Positions 3,537-55,997 of a stretch of DNA of 59,969 nucleotides are shown in pieces (position 1 is the stretch's first letter; the number at the start of each line of letters is the position of its first letter). The stretch is from Fundidesulfovibrio agrisoli (lineage in GTDB: Bacteria > Desulfobacterota > Desulfovibrionia > Desulfovibrionales > Desulfovibrionaceae). The position numbers were made by a program, and so were the translations under genes. The stretch is from contig NZ_JAKZKX010000024.1 in assembly GCF_022808715.1 (NCBI RefSeq), forward strand, positions 1-59,969. Reading direction: 5' to 3'. The notes beneath the pieces are model-generated. The model saw only the letters and a program-made list of their open reading frames with translations. It had not been told where the DNA came from and ran no database searches.

Positions 3537-4103
3537 ATGCTCGTAGACAACTCCAACCAGGCCGGTACGACCATGCGCACCCCCTCCAGGACGGAGGCCC
3601 TGGCCCTGCTCGAACAACATCAATCCAAGCCGGAGCGCATAGCCCACAGCGTCGCCGTGGCCGAGCTCGCCCTGGCCATCAGGGACAGGCTGGCCGAGCG
3701 CGGCCACGTGCTGGACCGGGGCCTCGTGGAGTCGGCCGCCCTGCTCCACGACATGTGCAAGGGCCAGCCCGACCATGACCGCGCCGCGGGCGAGTTGCTG
3801 CGCGGCCTGGGCTACCCCGAGGTGGCCGCCGTGGCCGAGGTGCACACCCGCCTGGCCGGGCGTACGCCCCAGGAGCCCGAACCCGTAAGCGCCGCCGAGG
3901 TGGTCTACATGGCGGACAAAAGCTACCGCCGCACCACCCGGGTGAGCGTGGAGGACCGCTACGCCATCTGGCTCAAGACCTGGGAGGGCAACGCGGAGAA
4001 GCTGGCCAGCCTGGAGAACGGGCAGAGGCGCGCCGAGACGGTGCGCGCGCGCATCGAGCGGGCCATGGGGCTGCCCCTGGATCAGGTGGGCCCGAAACCG
4101 TAA
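3537..4103 (+). CDS. HD-domain phosphohydrolase
   Basis: A 188-residue protein with a metal-dependent HD-domain signature. His37 lies in a helix reading HSVAVAELALA and the HD pair (71-72) in LLHDMCKG. Later acidic and His residues (EVHTRLAG, VVYMADKSYR) fit the remaining ligands. HD proteins hydrolyse phosphate esters, often of nucleotides; the substrate here is unknown. The gene starts 3 bp after ftsY. No clear ribosome site precedes this ATG, and Met13 (at 3573) is an alternative start. Translation may be coupled to ftsY. Confidence 0.8.
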   Translation: MLVDNSNQAGTTMRTPSRTEALALLEQHQSKPERIAHSVAVAELALAIRDRLAERGHVLDRGLVESAALLHDMCKGQPDHDRAAGELLRGLGYPEVAAVAEVHTRLAGRTPQEPEPVSAAEVVYMADKSYRRTTRVSVEDRYAIWLKTWEGNAEKLASLENGQRRAETVRARIERAMGLPLDQVGPKP

Positions 4104-4173
4104 ATTTTGACTTTACACAATCCGCTTGCACATGACATCCTCCGGCCATGATCCGCTGCCGGAGGCTCCCACT

Positions 4174-6105
4174 ATGACCAGCGCCCCGCCCGAACGATCC
4201 GCCCGGGCCATGCTCGGCAGCGTGTTCGGCTTTCCGGGGTTCCGCCCCGGCCAGGCCGAGGCGGTGCAACGCCTGCTCGGCGGGCGCAGCGTGCTCGCCG
4301 TGTTCCCCACCGGCGCGGGCAAGAGCCTCTGCTATCAGCTGCCCGCGCTGTGCCTCTCGGGCGTGACGGTGGTCATCTCGCCGCTCATCGCCCTGATGAA
4401 GGACCAGCTCGACTTCCTCACCGCCAAGGGCATCGCGGCCGCCCGCTACGACTCCAGCCTGGACGCGGCCCAGGCCCGCGCCGTGCTGGACGACCTGCGC
4501 GGCGGCAGGCTCAAGCTCCTCTACATCTCGCCCGAACGGCTGGCCAACGAGCGTTTCCTGCAGCACCTGCGCGGGGTGAAGATCTCCCTGCTGGCGGTGG
4601 ACGAGGCCCACTGCATCAGCGAATGGGGCCACAACTTCCGGCCCGACTACCTCAAGATCGCGGACCTGGTGCGGGATCTCGGCATCCCGAGGGTGCTGGC
4701 GCTCACGGCCACGGCGGACCAGGCCACCGCGCAGGACATCGCCCGCGCCTTCGCCATCGCCCCCGAGGACGTCGTGCGGACCGGCTTCCACCGCCCCAAC
4801 CTGGAGCTGCGCGCCACGGCCGTCACGCCCGGCAGCCGCAGGCGCACCCTGCTCGACCGCCTGGCCTCGCGGCCGCGCGGCCCGGCCATCGTCTACGTCA
4901 CCTTGCAGAAGACGGCCGAATCCGTGGCGGAGTATCTGAGCCGCAACGGCTTCCAGGCCAAGGCTTACCACGCGGGCATGGAGAACGAAGACCGCGACGC
5001 CGTGCAGGACGCCTTCATGGCCTCCGCCGACATGATCGTGGTGGCCACCATCGCCTTCGGCATGGGGGTGGACAAGGCCGACATCCGCGCCGTGTACCAC
5101 TACAACCTGCCCAAGTGCGTGGAGAGCTACGCCCAGGAGATCGGCCGGGCCGGGCGGGACGGCGCACCTGCCGTGTGCGAACTGCTGGTCTGCCGCCAGG
5201 ACACCGTGACCCTGGAGAACTTCGTGCTGGGCGACACCCCGGACGAGGGCTCCATCGCGGCCGCGCTGGACGAGATCCTCGGCGGGGAGGCGCAGCAGGA
5301 CATCTCCGTCTACGATCTCTCCAACCGGCACGACATCCGGCCCCTGGTGGTGCGCACGCTGCTGACCTACCTGGAGTTGGCCGGGGTGCTGCGCTCCGTG
5401 GGGCACGTCTATTCCAGCTATCTGGTGGAGCCGCTCAAGCCCTCGGCGGAGTTCCTCCCCCTCTTCGACGCCCAGCGGCAGGAGTTTCTGCGCCGGGTGC
5501 TGGCCAAGCTGGTCAAGCGCCGGAAATATTTCGCCATCGACGTGGACGAGGCGGCGAAGGCCCTGGAGGAGCCCAGGGAGCGGGTGGTCAGCGCGCTGGA
5601 GTACCTGCACGCCCAGGGGCATGTCGCGCTCAAGACCAGCGGCGTGAAGCAGCGTTTCCGCGTGCTCGCGCCTGACAGGGACAGGGCGGCGCTGGCTGCG
5701 GAGCTGGCCCGGCGCTTCAACCAGCGGGAGACGAGGGATGTGGAGCGCGTGGGCAGGATGCTGGCCCTGGCCGCCACCTCGGGCTGCCTCACGCGGGAAC
5801 TGGCCGGGCACTTCGGGGAGGAAATGGGAGACTGCGGGCACTGCGGCCCCTGCCTGGGCGACGCGCCCGCCCACCCCGCTCCGCTGAACGTGCGCCGCCC
5901 CAAAGGGCAGGCCATGGAGCGGGTCGCCGCCCTGATCCGGGAGCGGCTGTCGCAACTGGGCACGCCCCGGCGCATGGCCAAGTTCCTATGCGGGATATCC
6001 TCGCCCGCCACCATGCGGCTCAAGACCCATGAGGCGTTCGGGCTGTTCGAACGCGTGCCGTTCACCATGGTGCTGGAGCTGGCGCGCAGAGAGATTGAGG
6101 GATGA
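4174..6105 (+). CDS. recQ: RecQ-family ATP-dependent DNA helicase
   Basis: A 3'-5' superfamily 2 helicase used in recombination and repair of stalled forks. From the start chosen here it is 643 residues. Walker A is TGAGKS (Lys50), the DEAH box lies near residue 143 in LAVDEAHCISEWGHNFRPDY, and motif VI is EIGRAGRDGAP. A Cys cluster in the RQC-like region (GDCGHCGPC, about 552-560) probably binds zinc. I prefer the ATG at 4174 because GGAGG sits 8 bp upstream; an in-frame ATG at 4126 lacks a ribosome site. It converges on the toxin gene with only 9 bp between the stops. Confidence 0.93.
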   Translation: MTSAPPERSARAMLGSVFGFPGFRPGQAEAVQRLLGGRSVLAVFPTGAGKSLCYQLPALCLSGVTVVISPLIALMKDQLDFLTAKGIAAARYDSSLDAAQARAVLDDLRGGRLKLLYISPERLANERFLQHLRGVKISLLAVDEAHCISEWGHNFRPDYLKIADLVRDLGIPRVLALTATADQATAQDIARAFAIAPEDVVRTGFHRPNLELRATAVTPGSRRRTLLDRLASRPRGPAIVYVTLQKTAESVAEYLSRNGFQAKAYHAGMENEDRDAVQDAFMASADMIVVATIAFGMGVDKADIRAVYHYNLPKCVESYAQEIGRAGRDGAPAVCELLVCRQDTVTLENFVLGDTPDEGSIAAALDEILGGEAQQDISVYDLSNRHDIRPLVVRTLLTYLELAGVLRSVGHVYSSYLVEPLKPSAEFLPLFDAQRQEFLRRVLAKLVKRRKYFAIDVDEAAKALEEPRERVVSALEYLHAQGHVALKTSGVKQRFRVLAPDRDRAALAAELARRFNQRETRDVERVGRMLALAATSGCLTRELAGHFGEEMGDCGHCGPCLGDAPAHPAPLNVRRPKGQAMERVAALIRERLSQLGTPRRMAKFLCGISSPATMRLKTHEAFGLFERVPFTMVLELARREIEG

Positions 6106-15487: not shown

Positions 15488-16618
15488 CTACTGCACGGCC
15501 TTTCGCGCCAGCTCCGTCTTCTCCAGCTCCCGCACCATGGGGACGATCATCTCCCCCACCCTCTTGTGCGTTGCCTCGTTGGGGTGGGCGTCCAGGGAGC
15601 CAACCACAAGGTCGGACGGAGGCGTCCCTGTGAACACCGGGCTCAGGTCCAACACGGCGGCCCCCTGCTCCGTCAGTGCTCCGGCGACCTTGGCCGTGAT
15701 GGGCGCGCTCTGGCCCGGGGCCTGCAACATGGGGAAGACCACCGCCACCAGCGCGATGTGGTTCTCCCGGCAGTAGCGGGCCAGCTCCGTCAGTTCGGCG
15801 TTGTGCGCCCCCCAGACCGCCGGGTCGGCGTAGGCCCCCTGGAGCGAGGCCCAGAAGGTGTCGCCTCCGCCTGTCAGGTTGCCGCCCCAGCGCTCCATGC
15901 GCCAGTAGAGGTAGTCGGCCAGGGCCGAGTTCTCCAGCAGGGTCTTGGTCAGGCCCTTGGGCAGGTTCACCGCAAAGTTCGCCGGGTAACCCACCTGCCG
16001 GGCGGCGGCGAAGATGTCGTTGACGTAATAGGAGAAGACCACAACGTCGGGCTTCACCGGGAACTCCTCGAGGGCCTTGATCTCGTCAGGGGTGTCCCAG
16101 CCGATCTTGGAGACGTTGTACACGCGCCAGGCCTCGCCCAGCGCGCGGGCGGCCACGTCGGAGAAGCGGTCCCCGGCCTGCTTGACCCCGTGCCCGGCCG
16201 CAAAGGAGTCGCCCAGCACAACCAGCACGCGCTGGCCTGGCCCCGGCGGCGTCACTTCCATGTCGCGGTAGCCCAGCTTGTTGATGGGCTGCCAGTGGCG
16301 CTCGAACCACTTCTTCCCGGCGCGGGTCAGGTTGAAGCCGTCTGACTGGTCGTAGAAGTGGGAGAAGTAAAGCTCCAGGAGCAAAAACCCCAGCAGCAAT
16401 GAGTCGAGCACGAGAATCCCGGCCGCCAGGGCCTCCAGCGAGACGGGCAGGCGCTTGCGCACCCCGGGCAGCAGCACGGCGTGCAGGGCCAGGACCAGCA
16501 GGATGATGGCGAGGATCAGGATGGCGCGCTCCTTGGGCGCGGCGCCATGGCCGCGCGGTATGTCCCGTGAACGACCGGAAACTGGTTTCCCCCGCCCGAT
16601 CGGGCCGGGCGGGATCAT
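15488..16618 (-). CDS. SGNH/GDSL-type hydrolase, membrane-anchored
   Basis: A 376-residue protein with two hydrophobic helices near the N-terminus (about 32-50 and 63-86) and a periplasmic SGNH domain. Block I is VVLGDSFAAGHG (nucleophilic Ser), block III lies near YYVNDIF, and the catalytic Asp/His pair is DAHPNEATH. Such proteins deacetylate or acetylate envelope polysaccharides; the substrate is unknown. The ATG at 16618 lacks a good ribosome site and no better in-frame start is evident. Two glycosyltransferases lie upstream on the same strand, so it may act on the same glycan. Confidence 0.78.
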   Translation of the reverse strand: MIPPGPIGRGKPVSGRSRDIPRGHGAAPKERAILILAIILLVLALHAVLLPGVRKRLPVSLEALAAGILVLDSLLLGFLLLELYFSHFYDQSDGFNLTRAGKKWFERHWQPINKLGYRDMEVTPPGPGQRVLVVLGDSFAAGHGVKQAGDRFSDVAARALGEAWRVYNVSKIGWDTPDEIKALEEFPVKPDVVVFSYYVNDIFAAARQVGYPANFAVNLPKGLTKTLLENSALADYLYWRMERWGGNLTGGGDTFWASLQGAYADPAVWGAHNAELTELARYCRENHIALVAVVFPMLQAPGQSAPITAKVAGALTEQGAAVLDLSPVFTGTPPSDLVVGSLDAHPNEATHKRVGEMIVPMVRELEKTELARKAVQ

Positions 16619-24678: not shown

Positions 24679-25293
24679 ATGAGCAAAGCCGCCCGCATAG
24701 ACGCCCTGCTGGCCCGCCTGGCCGCCGTGCCACAGGCCCCTGACCTGTTCAATCCCTTCCAGGACGCGCGCCTCGCGGGCAACATGCGCCAGTTCCTGCT
24801 CTTCCTGGCCCGCCAGCCCGTGAAGCTGGCGCTCATCGGCGAGGCCGCCGGGCACCGGGGCTGCGCCCTGACCGGCATGCCCTTCACCAGCCCGGAGACG
24901 CTGGCCACCAACGCCAATCCGTTCTTCGCCTCCCACCGGGAGACCATGTTCCGCCAGGGCGACGTGTTCGAGCCCAGCGGCCGCTACGTTTGGGGCGTGG
25001 CCGACGCCCACGGCGTCATCCCCCTGCTCTGGAACGCCCTCCCCCTGCACCCGCACCTGCCTGGCAAGCCGCGCACCAACCGCACCCCGCGCACCAAAGA
25101 GCTGGAGCTGGGCAAACCCTTCCTGGCCGAAGTTCTGGACATCTTCCGCCCCCACCTGGTGGTGGCCGTGGGCCGCAAGGCAGAGCACTCCCTGGGGGCG
25201 CTCTTCCCCGGGCTGGCCTTCCGCACCGTGCGCCACCCGGCCATGGGCGGCAGCACCCTCTTCCGCGCCCAGATGGCGGAGATCCTCGCCTAG
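24679..25293 (+). CDS. Uracil-DNA glycosylase family protein
   Basis: A 204-residue single-domain protein of the uracil-DNA glycosylase superfamily, which removes uracil from DNA. Seen are LALIGEAAGHRGCALTGMPFTS (motif 1 region, about 50-71) and VRHPAMGG (motif 2 with conserved HP). The N-terminal LFNPFQDARLAGNMRQFLLF resembles family members outside the classic Ung group. It lacks the four cysteines of iron-sulfur families 4 and 5. The start at 24679 lies just after the adk terminator T-run, and no good ribosome site is seen. Subfamily is not settled. Confidence 0.8.
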   Translation: MSKAARIDALLARLAAVPQAPDLFNPFQDARLAGNMRQFLLFLARQPVKLALIGEAAGHRGCALTGMPFTSPETLATNANPFFASHRETMFRQGDVFEPSGRYVWGVADAHGVIPLLWNALPLHPHLPGKPRTNRTPRTKELELGKPFLAEVLDIFRPHLVVAVGRKAEHSLGALFPGLAFRTVRHPAMGGSTLFRAQMAEILA

Positions 25294-25602: not shown

Positions 25603-27042
25603 ATGATGAACCGCTTCTTCGCCGCCCTTTTCTCGGTCCTCTTGCTGGCCACAGCCACCGGGCTGCTGATGCGCGAAAGCATCAATACCAGGCTTCTCGA
25701 CATCCACGCCTTCAAGCACGACCCCGCCGCCACCACCTCGCCCACTCTGGGGTTCCGCCTCAGGCAAAGCAACGAGATCAAGGACAAGGCCCTCCACGGC
25801 TTCCGGCACAACGCCTACGGGTTCACCGGACCGGACTTCAGCCTGCGCAAGCCTTCCGACACTTTCAGAATCATCTGCTTGGGCGGCTCCACCACCTACG
25901 GTGCGGGCGTCGAAACGGACATGTATTCCTACCCCGCACTCCTGCAGGCGATGTTCGAGCGCACCAGATCACCCGGCGGCAAACGCATCGAAACGATCAA
26001 CGCGGGCGTTTTCGGCTACAACTCTCTGCACACCTACCTGCAAGTCGCCACTCGGCTGCGACTCTTCGACCCGGACATGTACATCATCATGGACGGGCTG
26101 AACGATCTCGATGCAGCCCAAGCCTTGCATCGAAAGGTGTATACACGGGAATACACCATCCCCGAAACATTCCGCAACGTCGTGGGTTACGAACGCAATC
26201 TGCAGAAAGCCCTTGACGCCGCCCGGCGCGACAATGTGCTGGCCGTGCTGGTCAGCGATCCGCTGAAGTCCGGCAAGGACCCGGCCGCATCCTACCTGAC
26301 GGACGGGAATCAGGACCTGGCCGAGTTGCTGGCCTTCGGACGCACGGCCCTGCCCGTCATCAACGCCTCGCTAGCCGCCAGGAACCACGTCCCCTTCGAC
26401 AACGCGCAGGACACCTTCGACCCCATCCTCTCGGATCGAGCCAAGACCCGCAGGGTCTGGGCGGACGACCTGCACCTGACCCGCTACGGCTATTACCTGC
26501 TGGCCCGCGAGGTTTACCGACAGTTGATGGCCATTCCCGCCGTACAGCAGGCTGCAGGAACCAGCCGGGCCGCCTCCAGCGAGGAGTTGGACGCACTCTT
26601 CCCTGAAATCGTGCTGTGGCGCCCTGCCGACGGCATGGGCTGGGCCGCGTCTACGGCACTCCGCAACGGGGAGCCGGAGGCCGTCAACATCAAGGACCTG
26701 GAAACCAACGACAAAGGCTGGAGCGCCTTCACGCCGTCCGACAGCGAAATCCCGGCCACATTGACGGTCGCCCCGGGCGCGGGCGTCACCCGGTTCAGAA
26801 TCTACCCGCGACTGGAGAAGGCAAGCGACAGCGTGAGCGTGTTCTGGCTGTCCGCCGACGGCAGGCGGCAGCCGATTTTCACCTTGGCCAAGGGTTTCGA
26901 CGACAGCCATTGGACTCCTTAGTCGGCATGGTATGACATCAGCGTGCCTGATGAACCCGGCGGAAAATTGGAAATCATCCTGAAGGGGTTCACTTCACAA
27001 TTCTGGCACAACGGCCCGGGACTGCTGTTTCCTGTCAACTGA
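25603..27042 (+). pseudogene. SGNH-like secreted protein interrupted by in-frame TAG at 26920-26922
   Basis: The first frame gives 439 residues from ATG 25603 to TAG at 26920-26922. A signal or anchor helix (FFAALFSVLLLATATGLLM) precedes an SGNH-type domain with GGSTTYGAG in place of GDS, DGLNDLD, and the Asp/His pair in DDLHLTRYGYYLLA. A C-terminal beta domain follows. After the TAG the same frame continues for 40 sense codons (SAWYDISVP, then KLEIILKG and FWHNGPGLLFPVN) to TGA at 27042. This extension reads as a natural end of the beta domain. So a nonsense mutation or sequence error is likely; the shorter protein could still be functional. Confidence 0.7.
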
Positions 27043-27124: not shown

Positions 27125-28417
27125 ATGCCGCACGCCGTCAGCCCCCGCATCGTCCATGTGGAGCCCACCACCCGCTGCAACATGCGCTGCCGCATGTGCA
27201 TCAAGGCCGTCACCGATTCCCCGGTCCCCGACGGAGACATGCCGTTTGAGGATTTCCAGCGCCTGCTGCCCGACCTGGCCGGTTGCGGCAAGCTGGTGTT
27301 CGCCGGCATCGGCGAGCCCCTGCTGCACCGCGACCTTCCCGCCATGATCGCGGCCGCGCGCCAGGTCATGAGCCCTGACGCGGAGATCGCCATGCAGTCC
27401 AACGGGCTGCTCCTGACCAAGGAGCTGGCCCTGGAGCTGGCTACCGCAGGGCTGGACACGATATGCATTTCGATCGACTCCCTCGACGACGCGGACGGCG
27501 AATCCCTGCACGGCGCGGTGCGGCTGCAGTCCCTGGCCGACGCCTACGAGGCCCTGCGCCTGGCCGGCGAGCGCGCCGGACGCCCGATCCGGGTGGGCGC
27601 GCAGATCGTGCTCATGCGCGAGAACGCCCCTCGCCTGCCCGAGATGGTGCGCTGGGCGGGTGACCACGGGGCGCGCTTCGTCATCGTGTCGCACCTGTTC
27701 CCATACACCCGCGAGGCGGAGGACCACTCGCTGTTCAACCCCAACCCCGAAGAGGCCGCCCGCTACTTCTCAAAGTGGAAGGCCATCGCGGCCGGGGAAG
27801 GGCTGAATTTCGACGACTACTACAACGTGCTCTGGCGGGTGGACAAATCCGATGGAGACAAGCGCCTGGTGCACCTGGTGAAGCTCATGCAGCGCGACGC
27901 CAACGCCAACGGCGTGTGGATGAACGTTCGCAGCCTCTTCGACTGGGACCGCACCGACAGGGCCGACCTGGAGCGAGCCTTCGAGGGCGCGCGCGCCGTG
28001 GCGCGGGAGCTGGACATGGAGATCAACCTGCCGCCGCTCTCGGCACGGCAGGAGAGACGCTGCGACTTCATGGAGGAAGGCGCCACCTTCATCAGCCGTT
28101 CGGGCCAGGTTGCGCCGTGCCACTTCCTGTGGCGCAACTACCGCTGCATCATGGGCGGCGAGACCAAGCACGTGCGCGCTGCGTTCTTCGGCTCCATCAG
28201 GCAGGCCCGCCTGGAGGACATCTGGAACGAGGCCGGCTACAAGGACTTCCGCGACCAGGCCCTGGCCTACGAATATCCACACTGCGCCAGTTGCAACGGC
28301 GGCCCCTGCAGCGACATCACCTCGGCCAGTTCCCCCTTCGAGGAGGACTGCATCGGCTCGCGCGTGCCCTGCTGCCACTGCCCCTGGCCGGTGGGGCAAC
28401 TGGCCTGCCTGAGCTAG
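27125..28417 (+). CDS. Radical SAM/SPASM protein
   Basis: A 430-residue radical SAM enzyme. The 4Fe-4S motif CNMRCRMC (Cys18, Cys22, Cys25) follows HVEPTTR. The SAM-binding GIGEPLLH is near residue 62. A SPASM-like C-terminal region has many cysteines: CDFMEEG, QVAPCHF, CASCNGGPCSD and CIGSRVPCCHCPW. These would hold one or two auxiliary clusters. The general type matures peptides or metalloenzymes. I lean toward a metalloenzyme maturase from the C-terminal pattern, but this is inference. No short precursor peptide is obvious nearby, and the upstream SGNH gene is the only close neighbour. Confidence 0.85.
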   Translation: MPHAVSPRIVHVEPTTRCNMRCRMCIKAVTDSPVPDGDMPFEDFQRLLPDLAGCGKLVFAGIGEPLLHRDLPAMIAAARQVMSPDAEIAMQSNGLLLTKELALELATAGLDTICISIDSLDDADGESLHGAVRLQSLADAYEALRLAGERAGRPIRVGAQIVLMRENAPRLPEMVRWAGDHGARFVIVSHLFPYTREAEDHSLFNPNPEEAARYFSKWKAIAAGEGLNFDDYYNVLWRVDKSDGDKRLVHLVKLMQRDANANGVWMNVRSLFDWDRTDRADLERAFEGARAVARELDMEINLPPLSARQERRCDFMEEGATFISRSGQVAPCHFLWRNYRCIMGGETKHVRAAFFGSIRQARLEDIWNEAGYKDFRDQALAYEYPHCASCNGGPCSDITSASSPFEEDCIGSRVPCCHCPWPVGQLACLS

Positions 28418-34899: not shown

Positions 34900-35832
34900 C
34901 TAGCCGCCGCCTTTTTCGGGAACAAGGGCCGGGCTTATCTGCAGCACCGCGCCGGAGAGGGCTTTTTCCAGCCAGGCGGAGAACTCCGCGGCCAGTTTGG
35001 CCTCGGCAAGGCGCTTTTCCACCAGGGGATAGACTTGCGCCACGCCCTCCACCCGGGGTTCGGAGCGCTCCAGCAGCAAAAGAGCCTGGAACCCCGCTCC
35101 GCCCGCAGCCATGGGACCCGCCTGCCCGGGCTTGAGCCCGGCCAGTGTGTCCCGCCATTTGCGGGGCAGGCTCTCCACGGTGCCCGCCTGGGTCTGGATG
35201 GAGACGTCGTCGAAGACGGTGAGCAGGTCCACGGGGTCCTTGGCCTTGGCCGCCGCCTCCAAGGCTTTTTTCAGGCTCTCGGCGTTCTTTGATTCGATCC
35301 GCAGGAATTTAACGGCGGCCGGCTGGGCGAACTCCCTGGAGTGCTCCTTGTAGTAGGCCTGCACCTCGATGGGCGCGATCACCACGCGCGGCCGCAGCAC
35401 CTGGGCGATGAGCGTGTCCATGGCCAGGCGGGCGCGCAGCCTCTCCCGCCAGATGGCCGGCTCCACCCCCTCCTCGGCCATGGTCAGCTCGAAGGCGTTG
35501 CCGGGGTAGCCGTCGCGCAGGGCGGTCTCGGCGCGCAGCACGTCGGCCTCGCCCGGCTCCAGGCCGCGTTTTTCGAGCTCCTGGGCCACCAGTGAATCCA
35601 CCACCAGCACGGCCAGTGCCTGCCCGTATTCGCTCCTCAGCCGCTTGAGCTCCTCCCCCTCCCCTCCGGGCTGGACGTAGAGCTTGAGCCCGTGCACGAA
35701 CTCCAGGGTCTTCAGGCTCACGGGCCTGCCGTTGACCAGGGCCACCACGCCCGGCTCCATGGGCTCGCCGCCGCACCCGGCGAGGCTCACGGCCGCCAGC
35801 AGGAGGCCCGCCAGCAGAAGGCCGCGCATCAC
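34900..35832 (-). CDS. Parvulin-type PPIase lipoprotein (PrsA/SurA-like)
   Basis: A 310-residue protein with a lipoprotein signal peptide whose lipobox is LAGC (Cys20). A SurA_N-like helical domain (VALVNGRPVSLKTLEF, then ALAVLVVDSLVAQELEKRGL) is followed by a degenerate parvulin region (VKFLRIESKNAESLKKALEAA to GGAGFQALLLLERSEPR). It should act as a periplasmic folding chaperone. Its ATG overlaps the mfd stop by 4 bp, so the two genes are coupled. Enzyme activity is uncertain; it may be chaperone-only. Confidence 0.83.
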   Translation of the reverse strand: MMRGLLLAGLLLAAVSLAGCGGEPMEPGVVALVNGRPVSLKTLEFVHGLKLYVQPGGEGEELKRLRSEYGQALAVLVVDSLVAQELEKRGLEPGEADVLRAETALRDGYPGNAFELTMAEEGVEPAIWRERLRARLAMDTLIAQVLRPRVVIAPIEVQAYYKEHSREFAQPAAVKFLRIESKNAESLKKALEAAAKAKDPVDLLTVFDDVSIQTQAGTVESLPRKWRDTLAGLKPGQAGPMAAGGAGFQALLLLERSEPRVEGVAQVYPLVEKRLAEAKLAAEFSAWLEKALSGAVLQISPALVPEKGGG

Positions 35833-38800
35833 GGAGCCAGCCCCGCAAGCTCTTTGGCCGCGTAGAGCAGGTTCTCGCGCACGGCGCCCTCCTGGGGCAG
35901 GCGGAGGTCCAGCTTGGCGGGCGGCAGCAGCTTCACCCAGCCCTGGCGCGGCGCGATCCAGGCCAGCAGGGCCTCGGGCGAGAGCGAGGCGGCCTGGGCG
36001 TCCCAGGTGAGGGCCAGCTTGGCGGGGTGGACGTCCGCCTTGCGCACGCCGAGTTTGGTCAGGATGCGCTTGAGGCCCAGCACGGCGGCGAAGTTCTCCA
36101 CTTCCTCGGGCGGATGGCCCCAGAGGTCGCGGATGTCGGCCAGCACCTCGGCCAGCTCGGCCTCGCCCTGGGCCGTGGTCATCCGCTTGTAGAGGCGCAG
36201 CCGCTCCTTGGAGTCGGGCACGTAGGTCTCGGGGATGCGCGCGGGGATGCCCAGGTTGAGCTCGGTCTCCACCTCCTCGCGGGGCGGCTCGCCCTTGACC
36301 CGGCGGACCTCCTCGTCGAGCATCTCCAGGAAGAGGTCCAGGCCGATCTTGGCGATGTGCCCGGACTGGGCCTCGCCCAGGATGTTGCCCGCGCCGCGCA
36401 GGCGCAGGTCCTCCATGGCGATCTGGAAGCCCGCGCCCAGGTAGTCCATGTCCAGGATGACCTGCAGGCGCTTGCGGGCCAGCTCGGGCACGCGGTCGAG
36501 CGACGGCACCACGAAGTAGGCGTAGGCCTGGCGCTCCGAGCGCCCCACCCGGCCGCGCAGCTGGTAGAGCTGGCCCAGGCCGAACATCTGGGCGTTGTCC
36601 ACCACCAGGGTGTTGGCCCGGGGGAAATCCAGCCCGGATTCGATGATGGCCGTGCAGACCAGCACGTCTATTTCGCCGTGCCAGAACTTGTGCATGGACT
36701 CTTCCAGGTCCTTCTCGGCCATCTGGCCGTGGGCCATGCCGATGCGCGCGCCCGGGGCGATCTTGCGCACGAAGTCCCCTGCGGCGGCCAGGCTGTGCAC
36801 GCGGTTGTGCACCCAGAACACCTGCCCGCCCCGCTCCAGCTCACGGCCCACGATGTTGGCCAGCATGGCCTCGTCGCGCTCCACCAGGGCCGTCTCCACC
36901 ACCTTGCGGTCGGCGGGCGGGGTCTCCATCACGGAGAGCCCCCGGATGCCGGAGAGCGAAAGCTGCAAGGTGCGCGGAATGGGCGTGGCCGAGAGGGTGA
37001 GGGCGTCCACGTTCTTCTTGAGGGTCTTGAGCTTTTCCTTGTGCTTGACGCCGAAGCGCTGCTCCTCGTCGAGGATGATGAGCCCCAGGCGCGGGAAGCT
37101 CACATCCTTCGAGAGCAGGCGGTGCGTGCCGATGAGGATGTCCAGCTCGCCCTTGGCGGCCTGCTCCGTGACCAGCTTGGCCCGCTTGGGCGGCACGAAG
37201 CGCGAGAGCATGCCCACGTTGACGGGGAAGCCCTCCAGGCGCTTGACGAAATTCTGGTAGTGCTGCTCGGCCAGCACCGTGGTGGGGCACAAGAGGGCCA
37301 CCTGCTTGCCGTCCAGCACGGCGCGGAAGGCGGCGCGCATGGCCACCTCGGTCTTGCCGAAGCCCACGTCGCCGCAGACCAGGCGGTCCATGGGTTCGGG
37401 GCGCTCCATGTCCTCCAGCACGTCGGAGATGGCGCGCTCCTGGTCGGGGGTCTCCTCGAAGCCGAAGGTGGCCTCGAACTCCCAGTACAGCTCGTTGACC
37501 GGCCCGTAGGCGTAGCCCTTGGCCACCCGGCGATAGGCGTACATCTCCACCAGGTCCTGGGCGATCTTCTCGATGGCCTTGCGGGCCTTTTCCCGGCTGG
37601 TCTTCCAGCGGGCGCCGCCCAGGCGGTCCAGGGAGGGGTCGGTACCCTCGGGGCCCTTGTAGCGCTGCACCAGGCCCAGGCGGTCCACCGGCAGGTAGAG
37701 CTTGTCCCCGCCGTCGAAGAGCAGCAGCAGATAATCGTTGGCGGCCTGGTCCACGGAGAGGCGGGTCAGCTCCTCGAAGCGGGCGAGGCCGTAGTCGCGG
37801 TGCACCAGCAGGTCGCCGAGGTTGAGGTCGTCGAAGGCGGTGAGGCCCTTGAAGCCCTTCTCCGGCTTGGGGCGGGCGGCCTTGCTCGCCCCGGGCTGGA
37901 TCACGTCCTCCGGCAGGACCAGGCAGTTGTTCCAGCCCAGCTCCATGCCGCGCCGCAACGGTGAGATCAGGGCGTAGAGCCCGGGCCGCCCCGCCGGGGC
38001 CTCCTGCGAGAAGGCGAAGCCCTCGTGCTCGGCCAGCTTGAGGAACTTCTTGCGGGATTGGCGCGAGTGGAAGGAGAACAGCACCTGCCTGCGCTCCTCC
38101 TGCCACTGCTTGAGCCCGGCCACCAGGGTGCTCCAGGGACGGCGGGCCTCGTCGGGGCGCCAGAACAGGTCGGCGAAGTTGTCGATGTGGCGCTCGGGCA
38201 GGTCGGTGCCGTGCTTCTCGCGCCCGATGACCAGATCCTCGAACACCAGCTGGGGCCTGTCCATCCAGGTCCGGCGCGACATTGCCTCGGGCCAGACCAG
38301 CTGGTGCCTGGGCCAGGGGAAGCCCTGCGCCCCGGCCAGCTTCTCCAGCTCCGTGACCCAGGCCAGCTCCTGCTCCTCCAGGCGGGGGCGCAGGCTGGCG
38401 GACTGGTGCAGCACGAACACGGCGTTCTTGGGCAGCCAGCGCTCCAGGGGCACGGGGGCCTCGTAGTAGAGCCCGGGCCAGATGTTGCCGTCACCGCGCA
38501 GGAGCATGTCCTCCATGTGGGCCTGGGCCGAGCGGTTGAGCTCGCCGGTCTGGGCCAGCCTGGCCCAGTTGGCGCGGGCCTGCTCCTTGAACTCCTCCGA
38601 GAGGATGGCCGGGGCCACCGGCAGGATGGAGACGCGCTCCAGCGGGGCCTGGGAGCGCTGCGAGCCCGCGTCGAACAGGCGGATGCTCTCCAGGGTGTCG
38701 CCGAAGAACTCCAGGCGCACGGGCTGGTCGTAGCCGGGGGGGAAGATGTCCAGCAGGTCGCCGCGCAGGGCCATGTCGCCCGGCAGGGAGGCCATGCCCA

Positions 38801-39272
38801 CGCGCTTGTAGCCCCAGAGCACGGTCTGATCCAGGATCATCTCCGGGGAGATCTCCTCCCCGGCGCGCAGCTCCAGAACGTTGTGCGCAAGCGCCGCCGG
38901 AGGCGGCCACTTGGGCAGCAGGTTGTCCACGGAGAGGCAGAGAATCCTGGGCTCCACGTCGCTGGCGCAGGCCTGCAGGAAGGCCCAGCGTTTGGCCCAG
39001 AGCGCCGCTCCCGGGGGCGCGGGCGTGTAGGACGGCAGGGCCGCCCAGGGGCGCTCCGGCCCGGCTGGGGCATCCTGGGGGAAATAGAGCTGCATGAGCG
39101 CCGTGAGCTGGGCCATGTCGGCCGCGCCCGGGGCGAGGACGACAACGGGCCTGCCCTTGGCGCGGATGTCGCGGCAGAGGCTGACCAGGCTGCCCGGCCC
39201 GCTCTTGTAGACGCTGAGCGACTGGGCCTTGCCCGACAGCAGTTCGTTCAGTGGCAGTTGTAAATTGGCCAT
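35829..39272 (-). CDS. mfd: Transcription-repair coupling factor
   Basis: Removes RNA polymerase stalled at lesions and recruits UvrA. The 1147-residue product has an N-terminal UvrB-like region, a CarD-like RNA polymerase interaction domain (LNLGDLLVHRDYGLARFEEL, near 484), and RecG-like helicase motifs. The helicase blocks are DRLVCGDVGFGKTEVAMRAAF, LCPTTVLAEQHYQNF, LIILDEEQRFGVKHKE, LSATPIPRTLQ and QLRGRVGRSERQAY. A TRCF C-terminal domain ends it. It is first in the leftward operon, overlapping the PPIase gene. Confidence 0.97.
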   Translation of the reverse strand: MANLQLPLNELLSGKAQSLSVYKSGPGSLVSLCRDIRAKGRPVVVLAPGAADMAQLTALMQLYFPQDAPAGPERPWAALPSYTPAPPGAALWAKRWAFLQACASDVEPRILCLSVDNLLPKWPPPAALAHNVLELRAGEEISPEMILDQTVLWGYKRVGMASLPGDMALRGDLLDIFPPGYDQPVRLEFFGDTLESIRLFDAGSQRSQAPLERVSILPVAPAILSEEFKEQARANWARLAQTGELNRSAQAHMEDMLLRGDGNIWPGLYYEAPVPLERWLPKNAVFVLHQSASLRPRLEEQELAWVTELEKLAGAQGFPWPRHQLVWPEAMSRRTWMDRPQLVFEDLVIGREKHGTDLPERHIDNFADLFWRPDEARRPWSTLVAGLKQWQEERRQVLFSFHSRQSRKKFLKLAEHEGFAFSQEAPAGRPGLYALISPLRRGMELGWNNCLVLPEDVIQPGASKAARPKPEKGFKGLTAFDDLNLGDLLVHRDYGLARFEELTRLSVDQAANDYLLLLFDGGDKLYLPVDRLGLVQRYKGPEGTDPSLDRLGGARWKTSREKARKAIEKIAQDLVEMYAYRRVAKGYAYGPVNELYWEFEATFGFEETPDQERAISDVLEDMERPEPMDRLVCGDVGFGKTEVAMRAAFRAVLDGKQVALLCPTTVLAEQHYQNFVKRLEGFPVNVGMLSRFVPPKRAKLVTEQAAKGELDILIGTHRLLSKDVSFPRLGLIILDEEQRFGVKHKEKLKTLKKNVDALTLSATPIPRTLQLSLSGIRGLSVMETPPADRKVVETALVERDEAMLANIVGRELERGGQVFWVHNRVHSLAAAGDFVRKIAPGARIGMAHGQMAEKDLEESMHKFWHGEIDVLVCTAIIESGLDFPRANTLVVDNAQMFGLGQLYQLRGRVGRSERQAYAYFVVPSLDRVPELARKRLQVILDMDYLGAGFQIAMEDLRLRGAGNILGEAQSGHIAKIGLDLFLEMLDEEVRRVKGEPPREEVETELNLGIPARIPETYVPDSKERLRLYKRMTTAQGEAELAEVLADIRDLWGHPPEEVENFAAVLGLKRILTKLGVRKADVHPAKLALTWDAQAASLSPEALLAWIAPRQGWVKLLPPAKLDLRLPQEGAVRENLLYAAKELAGLAP

Positions 39273-54693: not shown

Positions 54694-55665
54694 CTAGTCG
54701 CCCAGCACGTAGCTGAAGATCAGCGGGGCCACGATGGCCGCGTCGGAGTTGATCATGTAGCGGGGGGTGTCGATGTCGAGCTTGCCCCAGGTGATCTTCT
54801 CGTTGGGCACCGCGCCGGAGTACGAGCCGTAGGAGGTGGTGGAGTCGCTAATCTGGCAGAAGTAGGCCCAGAAGGGGGTGTCTTCCATCTCCATGTCCTG
54901 GATGAGCATGGGCACCACGCAGATGGGGAAGTCGCCCGCGATGCCGCCGCCGATCTGGAAGAAGCCGATGGGGGTCTTCTCTTCGGCCATCTTGATGTAC
55001 CAGTTGGCCAGGTGCTGGAGCTGCTCGGTGCCGTGGCGGATGGCGGCGTGGCTCTTCACGTTGCCGCGCATCACCTCGGAGCAGAAGATATTGCCCAGGG
55101 TGCAGTCTTCCCAGCCGGGAGTGTAGATAGTCAGGCCCATTTCCTTGGCGGCCAGCACCCAGGAGTGCTCGGCGGGCACCTGGAAGTGCTTCTCGATGCC
55201 GGGCTGGTCAAGCAGGTCGTAGATGAACTCGAAGGGGAACTGGGGCTTGTTCTCGTCGGCGGCCTTCTTCCACAGCTTGGAGATGTCGCGCTGCACCTGG
55301 CGCAGAACGCCCTCGGGGATGCAGGTGTCCGTGACGCGGTTGAAGCCCGCGTCGTAGAGCTCCTTCTCGGCCTCGGGGGAGAGGTCGCGATAGTTGGGGC
55401 ACATCTTGTATTCGTTGTGGTTGAAGAGGTTGAACAGGTCCTCCTCCAGGTTGGCCGCGGTGCAGCAGACGGCGTGCACCTTGCCCTGGCGGATCATGCG
55501 CGCCAGGCTGATGCCGATCTCCGCCGTGCTCATGGCCCCGGCCATGGTCAGGAACATCTTGCCGCCGCCGGCCAGCAGGGCGTTCCAGTCCCTGGCCGCG
55601 TCCAGGGTCTCGCGGGCGTTGAAATGTCTGAAGTGAAGGTCCATGAATTGCGTGATGGTGCTCAT
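54694..55665 (-). CDS. Deoxyhypusine-synthase-like protein
   Basis: A 323-residue protein of the deoxyhypusine synthase fold. Seen are FLTMAGAMSTAEIGISLARMIRQGKVHAVCCTAANLEEDLFN, an NAD-binding core, FFQIGGGIAGDFPICVVPMLIQD, and the catalytic-lysine block VPNEKITWGKLDID, whose Lys295 matches the catalytic Lys of eukaryotic DHS. Bacteria lack eIF5A, so the true reaction is probably aminobutyl transfer to a polyamine or an unknown protein. The start at 55665 has AGGAG 5 bp upstream; longer frames do not fit. It has its own terminator. Confidence 0.88.
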   Translation of the reverse strand: MSTITQFMDLHFRHFNARETLDAARDWNALLAGGGKMFLTMAGAMSTAEIGISLARMIRQGKVHAVCCTAANLEEDLFNLFNHNEYKMCPNYRDLSPEAEKELYDAGFNRVTDTCIPEGVLRQVQRDISKLWKKAADENKPQFPFEFIYDLLDQPGIEKHFQVPAEHSWVLAAKEMGLTIYTPGWEDCTLGNIFCSEVMRGNVKSHAAIRHGTEQLQHLANWYIKMAEEKTPIGFFQIGGGIAGDFPICVVPMLIQDMEMEDTPFWAYFCQISDSTTSYGSYSGAVPNEKITWGKLDIDTPRYMINSDAAIVAPLIFSYVLGD

Positions 55666-55997
55666 TGCCGCTCCTGTGCCGCAGCCGCGCCGTACGGCGC
55701 TTGATGATCTTGATTGGATATATGTGTATTCAAAGGAAATGCTCGAATGCACTCTGCCCTGGGCCGCCGCGCAGCGCCTCCGCCATGTGGGAGAAACGGC
55801 TGCCGAACCGGCCCGGGACGGCGATGCCCCAGCCAAAGAATCAAGTCCGTAGCAGACAATAGGGGGGTGCGTAAAGCCCGGCGGGCCGTTCTGGGCGGTT
55901 GAAGGGGGCCGAAAGTCACTGTAGTGTAACCTTCGCAGGGCAAAACATGTTCGTCTGGCCGCATTCGGCCCGCACGCCACCCCAACCCGGAACATCC
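55666..55997. other. Divergent intergenic region
   Basis: No gene is seen. On the right it contains the promoter of the acyl-CoA ligase gene (55899-55927). On the left there is an AT-rich patch near 55712-55725 where a promoter for the DHS-like gene may lie, but its -35 is not clear. Confidence 0.55.
55899..55927 (+). promoter_or_regulatory. Promoter of the acyl-CoA ligase gene
   Basis: TTGAAG (55899-55904) and TAGTGT (55922-55927) have a 17-bp spacer, about 70 bp upstream of the start. Confidence 0.5.

Follow-up and report, generated by a model that had tools for sequence, protein, structure and literature searches.

The SGNH/GDSL hydrolases (PF13472) have a catalytic domain; in the gene described here, the GGST, MDGLND, and DDLHL motifs are its catalytic blocks. 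In the SGNH esterase CEX (PDB 6hfz and 6hh9), there is also an accessory beta domain.

In the portion of a published survey that we draw on, in-frame stop codons are described as widespread in bacterial genes and tending to be short-lived, with many of the affected genes keeping dN/dS below 1 (PMC7918605).

Here, we describe an SGNH/GDSL hydrolase gene with an in-frame TAG in Fundidesulfovibrio agrisoli (Desulfovibrionaceae), the genome of which (assembly GCF_022808715.1) comprises 3.94 Mb in 52 contigs. The stretch of DNA analysed (hereafter, ‘the window’) is one whole contig (NZ_JAKZKX010000024.1; 59,969 nucleotides). We consider it likely that the gene is intact apart from the TAG, which a nonsense substitution would have introduced recently.

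The open reading frame and its domains

The open reading frame (ORF; 25603–26922, forward strand) begins with ATG at 25603 and runs for 439 codons to a TAG at 26920–26922; beyond it, the same frame continues for 39 sense codons (26923–27039) to a TGA at 27040–27042. A sequence-only reading had already described an SGNH-like ORF ended by TAG with an open frame beyond it, which the sequence confirms, and had counted 40 more sense codons. The count is 39; 40 residues are missing only when the TAG site itself is included. The gene lies between a uracil-DNA-glycosylase-superfamily gene (24679–25293) and a radical SAM/SPASM gene (27125–28417, forward strand), and the latter is a conserved neighbour, with a 90% identical orthologue in the same place in another genome of the genus (G003).

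Residues 92–297 (25876–26493, forward strand) match the Pfam model Lipase_GDSL_2 (PF13472) with 56.4 bits against a gathering score of 32.9 (E 7.1e-15). This catalytic domain contains the GGST, MDGLND, and DDLHL blocks, which show little or no variation among the aligned sequences (in the alignment of six sequences, GGSTT is invariant and DDLHL nearly so), and the gene product is a probable esterase. Solved structures searched with a profile yielded a single match, the lysophospholipase L1-like esterase 9otv (E 4.3e-4), which covers the catalytic part only. The catalytic domain is preceded by an N-terminal helix (residues 2–32; 25606–25698, forward strand), predicted from its hydrophobic sequence and from a model of the orthologue, in which the helix has low confidence beginning at residue 22; it is a possible membrane anchor or signal. 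It is followed by a C-terminal beta domain (approximately residues 340–479 in the orthologue; 26620–27039, forward strand), delimited by alignment, family profile, and the orthologue model, and broken by the TAG. No match to this domain was found in the Pfam and NCBIfam scans, and the NCBIfam scan gave none for either the window protein or the G003 orthologue. The window also encodes another GDSL-type hydrolase (15488–16618, reverse strand; 376 amino acids; PF13472, E 5.2e-10).

An open stretch beyond a stop codon is, taken alone, no more than chance would give. Counting both strands, the window has 456 TAG triplets, and 43% of them precede at least 39 sense codons. In-frame runs at least as long also follow the stops of 14 genes (the SGNH gene included) out of 31 listed by hand; we therefore rejected the open frame as evidence by itself. 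It is the homology of the tail, seen in the alignments, that lifts this TAG above chance.

The orthologue and other family members

A search of 59 genomes, the F. agrisoli genome included, gave matches in 17, and a search of 288 genomes of the family (F. agrisoli and G003 included) gave matches in 16 at E 1e-15 or better. The same-genus genomes returned were that of F. agrisoli and six others, one per species. A scan of genome contigs with the window protein found no relative; a second contig scan, with the alignment, found three loci, which were left out of the counts.

The G003 genome encodes a syntenic orthologue of 479 residues that is 73% identical to the window protein without gaps, has the same radical SAM gene downstream, and ends with TGA in the same final column as the TGA at 27040–27042. 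The 39-residue tail aligns to its C-terminus without gaps, with 32 of 39 residues identical. More distant relatives (41–52% identical; G002, G006, G005, and G030) also run through the TAG column and can be aligned to the tail. The window gene (25603–27039) has diverged from G003 faster than most genes compared in the window: the median identity of matched window ORFs, shadow frames included, is about 90%.

Among the seven relatives checked, the residue at the TAG column is Glu in five (GAA in G003, G002, G006, G005, and G030) and Val in two (G290 and G295). The sequence-only reading had proposed a change from CAG, TGG, or a similar codon. The relatives bear out the nonsense change and offer nothing for Gln or Trp as the lost residue, and they call for an additional third-position change: TAG differs from the GAA of the G003 orthologue at two bases. 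One route to TAG would begin with a silent change, the nonsense change coming second; a possible alternative is a stop codon that later changed to another stop.

A profile of five intact relatives, run over open frames from 37 of 127 loci, recovered 26 distinct family ORFs at E 1e-10 (matches such as G003:C8 and G295:C13 are outside this ORF count). Nineteen of them reach at least profile position 479, two by their C-terminal part alone. Another six match only to position 351 or less, so that the domain is not shown in them, although the C-terminal part is long, and of a different kind, in some of these. The window ORF, which ends at position 448, is the only one of the 26 to end inside the C-terminal domain. 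Homologues ending at the same TAG, which the sequence-only reading had named as a refuting result, were looked for among these ORFs and not found; none of the other 25 has a stop at the TAG column. In G004, a 289-residue open frame (L122; G004:C5:659-1000) matches the C-terminal beta domain only, so that this domain may also exist separately from the hydrolase.

One further family member ends at a TAG, namely, a tandem SGNH paralogue in G005 (L033; G005:C5, frame 3654–4892). We rejected it as a parallel case because further stops follow soon after the TAG and the 7.5 kb downstream yielded no trace of the C-terminal beta domain; it is a paralogue without the domain, and it shows that domain-less members exist in the genus. 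This paralogue, together with the fact that six of the 26 family ORFs (itself among them) do not match the domain, lends something to the idea that the window gene lost its C-terminal domain adaptively, the truncated protein being favoured. We regard that idea as highly improbable, however, on account of where the cut falls, as set out below.

Predicted effect of the TAG on the protein

The AlphaFold model of the intact G003 orthologue, computed from six sequences (mean pLDDT 78.0), comprises the helix of residues 2–32, an alpha/beta core, and the C-terminal beta domain. The latter has ten strands, at residues 359–361, 363–365, 373–378, 385–391, 397–403, 410–416, 422–429, 442–447, 455–461, and 466–470. 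Because the TAG stands at residue 440, the last three of the ten would be missing from the window protein, and it is to these three that the 39 codons past the TAG (26923–27039, forward strand) are homologous. The earlier suggestion that the C-terminal beta domain naturally ends with the added residues thus agrees with both the relatives' alignments and the fold model.

The truncated window protein, modelled with the same relatives, has a mean pLDDT of 69.2. Over residues 341–430, the 10-residue means are 76–93 in the intact orthologue vs. 32–78 in the truncated protein; over residues 241–330, they are 79–95 vs. 73–94, and confidence in the catalytic core thus hardly changes. The comparison is suggestive of a loss of confidence in the C-terminal domain due to the cut, in models that also differ by 27% in sequence. 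An adaptive loss of the domain is hard to reconcile with this picture: the cut is inside the domain rather than at its boundary, leaving seven of the ten strands of the orthologue model, and the part that remains is modelled with low confidence.

Selection on the tail and age of the stop

In the comparison with G003, dN is 0.173 and dS 0.661 over the 439 codons that precede the TAG (dN/dS 0.26); over the 39 codons that follow it, dN is 0.094 and dS 0.445 (dN/dS approximately 0.21). The tail has eight nonsynonymous and nine synonymous differences and no gap. Eight nonsynonymous differences fall within the spread of upstream 39-codon windows (4 to 25, median 14), of which 17% have eight or fewer. 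Synonymous constraint in the tail (dS 0.445 vs. 0.661) involves only 26.8 sites, too few to call.

Had the tail been neutral over the whole window lineage, 30–38 nonsynonymous differences would be expected vs. the eight seen (P 2.4e-6 to 5.8e-9) in a simple Poisson sketch that assigns equal shares of the divergence to the two lineages. If the tail was neutral along half of the lineage, P is 0.04 to 2.4e-5, according to the constraint assumed, and neutrality for a quarter of it or less is compatible with the data under weak assumptions. These comparisons show purifying selection on the tail, which implies that it was coding until recently or is still coding. Its low nonsynonymous count means that it has been coding most of the time, so that the stop is recent, or an error, or read through. 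An undecayed tail is equally expected under nonsense mutation, sequence error, and read-through.

A sequencing or assembly error at one base, with a full-length gene in the living organism, would leave the tail constrained just as in an intact gene. Such an error would, however, need to have hit a codon whose third base already differed from that of GAA through drift, and the contig does not look error-rich, as the comparison of gene pairs below indicates. We consider an error unlikely.

Functional or leaky read-through of the UAG, giving mostly the short form and a minority of protein with the complete C-terminal domain, would also account for the tail's dN/dS of approximately 0.21. The parts of the survey cited above that we rely on, in which in-frame stops with dN/dS below 1 are widespread in bacterial genes, are in keeping with it (PMC7918605). 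Against it stand the other 25 family ORFs, which have no stop at the TAG column, and the decoding evidence that follows.

Decoding of TAG in the genome

To assess TAG as a stop, 182 gene pairs between the F. agrisoli genome and G003 (45 from the window and 137 from contig C51) were picked by a heuristic based on an excess of third-position differences. A first pair count was spoiled by shadow ORFs, and as some shadow frames persist after filtering, the counts are approximate. In 60 of the 182 pairs, the gene has a terminal TAG at the residue where its G003 counterpart ends too (54 TAG/TAG, four TAG/TAA, and two TAG/TGA). Another 23 pairs stop close to the aligned residue without coinciding with it, two have a sense codon where G003 stops, and one ends far away.

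A stop inside the match is found in 12 of the 182 pairs, seven of which carry TGA only. The five that include TAG or TAA are the SGNH gene, one other window gene, and three genes in C51; in the four besides the SGNH gene, no stop lies beyond codon 24 of the match, the pattern that over-long starts would give. By contig, the window has three pairs with internal stops among 45; the two besides the SGNH gene have theirs at match codons 7 and 8 and seem to have been given over-long starts. An error-rich contig is therefore unsupported. The nine pairs with internal stops among the 137 of C51 fall into two groups. Five have stops only in the first 27 codons (10 and 24; 3 and 24; 27; 4; 23), for which the simplest account is that the relative's ORF was started too far upstream; the remaining four (codons 36/119, 78, 54/137, and 33) have TGA only, overlap longer open frames, and are probably shadow frames. 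Elsewhere in the window, a gene for a deoxyhypusine-synthase-family protein, here in a bacterium (54694–55995, reverse strand; PF01916, E 1.3e-37), probably has an over-long start, since the match to the G003 ORF does not begin until residue 106 and the 5′ end of the gene overlaps a divergent AMP-binding gene at 55899.

Release factor 1 is encoded by a prfA gene without an internal stop (541.7 bits, cut-off 423.25). With prfA present and TAG a common terminal stop, we rejected loss of release factor 1 or genome-wide reassignment of TAG. Among the 46 Rfam tRNA hits of the F. agrisoli genome examined with ARAGORN, none has the anticodon CTA of an amber suppressor, the list being incomplete (some standard tRNAs, such as that for Ile, are absent from it); the tRNA-Leu listed with anticodon tag is a leucine tRNA. 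ARAGORN also reported a tRNA-Arg (tcg) in the window (38655–38734, reverse strand), which lies inside a 1147-residue ORF (35829–39272), is absent from the Rfam tRNA hits, and is probably a false positive.

The model for the N-terminal part of the pyrrolysyl-tRNA synthetase PylS (TIGR03912) has no match in the seven genomes of the genus and was found in the Methanosarcina control. The C-terminal model (TIGR02367) gives weak matches in all seven and above the cut-off in none; as 13 of 14 control genomes give matches to it, one above the cut-off, the weak matches are probably other class II synthetases. With no PylS above the cut-off in these seven genomes, pyrrolysine recoding was rejected. The base after the TAG (+4) is U, which is reported to reduce read-through in Escherichia coli (PMC5289835).

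The sequence-only reading had held read-through to be the less likely course, TAG being an ordinary stop for many genes here, and had pointed to pylS or a suppressor tRNA as what to look for; the pair counts and the tRNA, PylS, and release factor searches side with it. We judge read-through to be quite improbable, and a leaky UAG that sets the ratio of a catalytic-only short form to the long form, with selection keeping both, to be very improbable.

A probable recent nonsense substitution

A late nonsense change, the core of the earlier reading, is where the relatives, the fold model, the recoding searches, and the usage of TAG agree: the orthologue has a sense codon (Glu) at the site and the old final TGA, and the tail is undecayed. 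If the stop seen in the assembly is also carried by the living genome, as we infer, events may have run as follows. Of the two base changes from GAA, the one at the third base would have been silent if it preceded the nonsense change. Release factor 1 would then terminate the ribosome at the UAG, yielding a 439-residue protein that keeps the complete catalytic domain but whose C-terminal beta domain stops three strands short. The unfinished domain would probably fold poorly or be unstable, and the gene would be an early pseudogene or else tolerate the loss of these strands.

Locally, this is a matter of annotation, and the gene ought to be flagged as truncated or as a possible pseudogene. Should peptides of the tail be found, the gene would become a natural test case for functional UAG read-through in a bacterium whose genome, when searched, yielded no pyrrolysine system and no suppressor tRNA.

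Comparison with described systems

The in-frame TAG is what the window gene has in common with pyrrolysine and other amber recoding systems; the F. agrisoli genome differs from these in having release factor 1 and ordinary TAG stops, with no PylS above the cut-off and no CTA anticodon found. The likeness to the SGNH/GDSL hydrolases (PF13472) is in residues 92–297, which match their catalytic domain above the gathering score, and the difference is in the extra C-terminal beta domain of the window family, cut by the TAG in the window.

With the intact orthologue model as query, the six best Foldseek matches all belong to the two-domain esterase CEX, which is active on acetylated mannans (PDB 6hfz and 6hh9), followed mainly by single-domain GDSL-type esterases. 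The whole-chain TM-scores for CEX are nonetheless only 0.29–0.39, with an rmsd of about 20 Å and 12–14% identity. Such low scores and so large an rmsd mean that the domains are arranged differently or are not homologous, and with the TM-scores below 0.4, we assign the accessory domain to no known family.

Finally, the stop resembles the in-frame nonsense substitutions treated in the portion of the survey used here (PMC7918605). It differs from them in being carried by only one genome in our set; with its alignable flanks and a dN/dS below 1, it is, as far as that portion of the survey describes them, an in-frame stop of the same kind.
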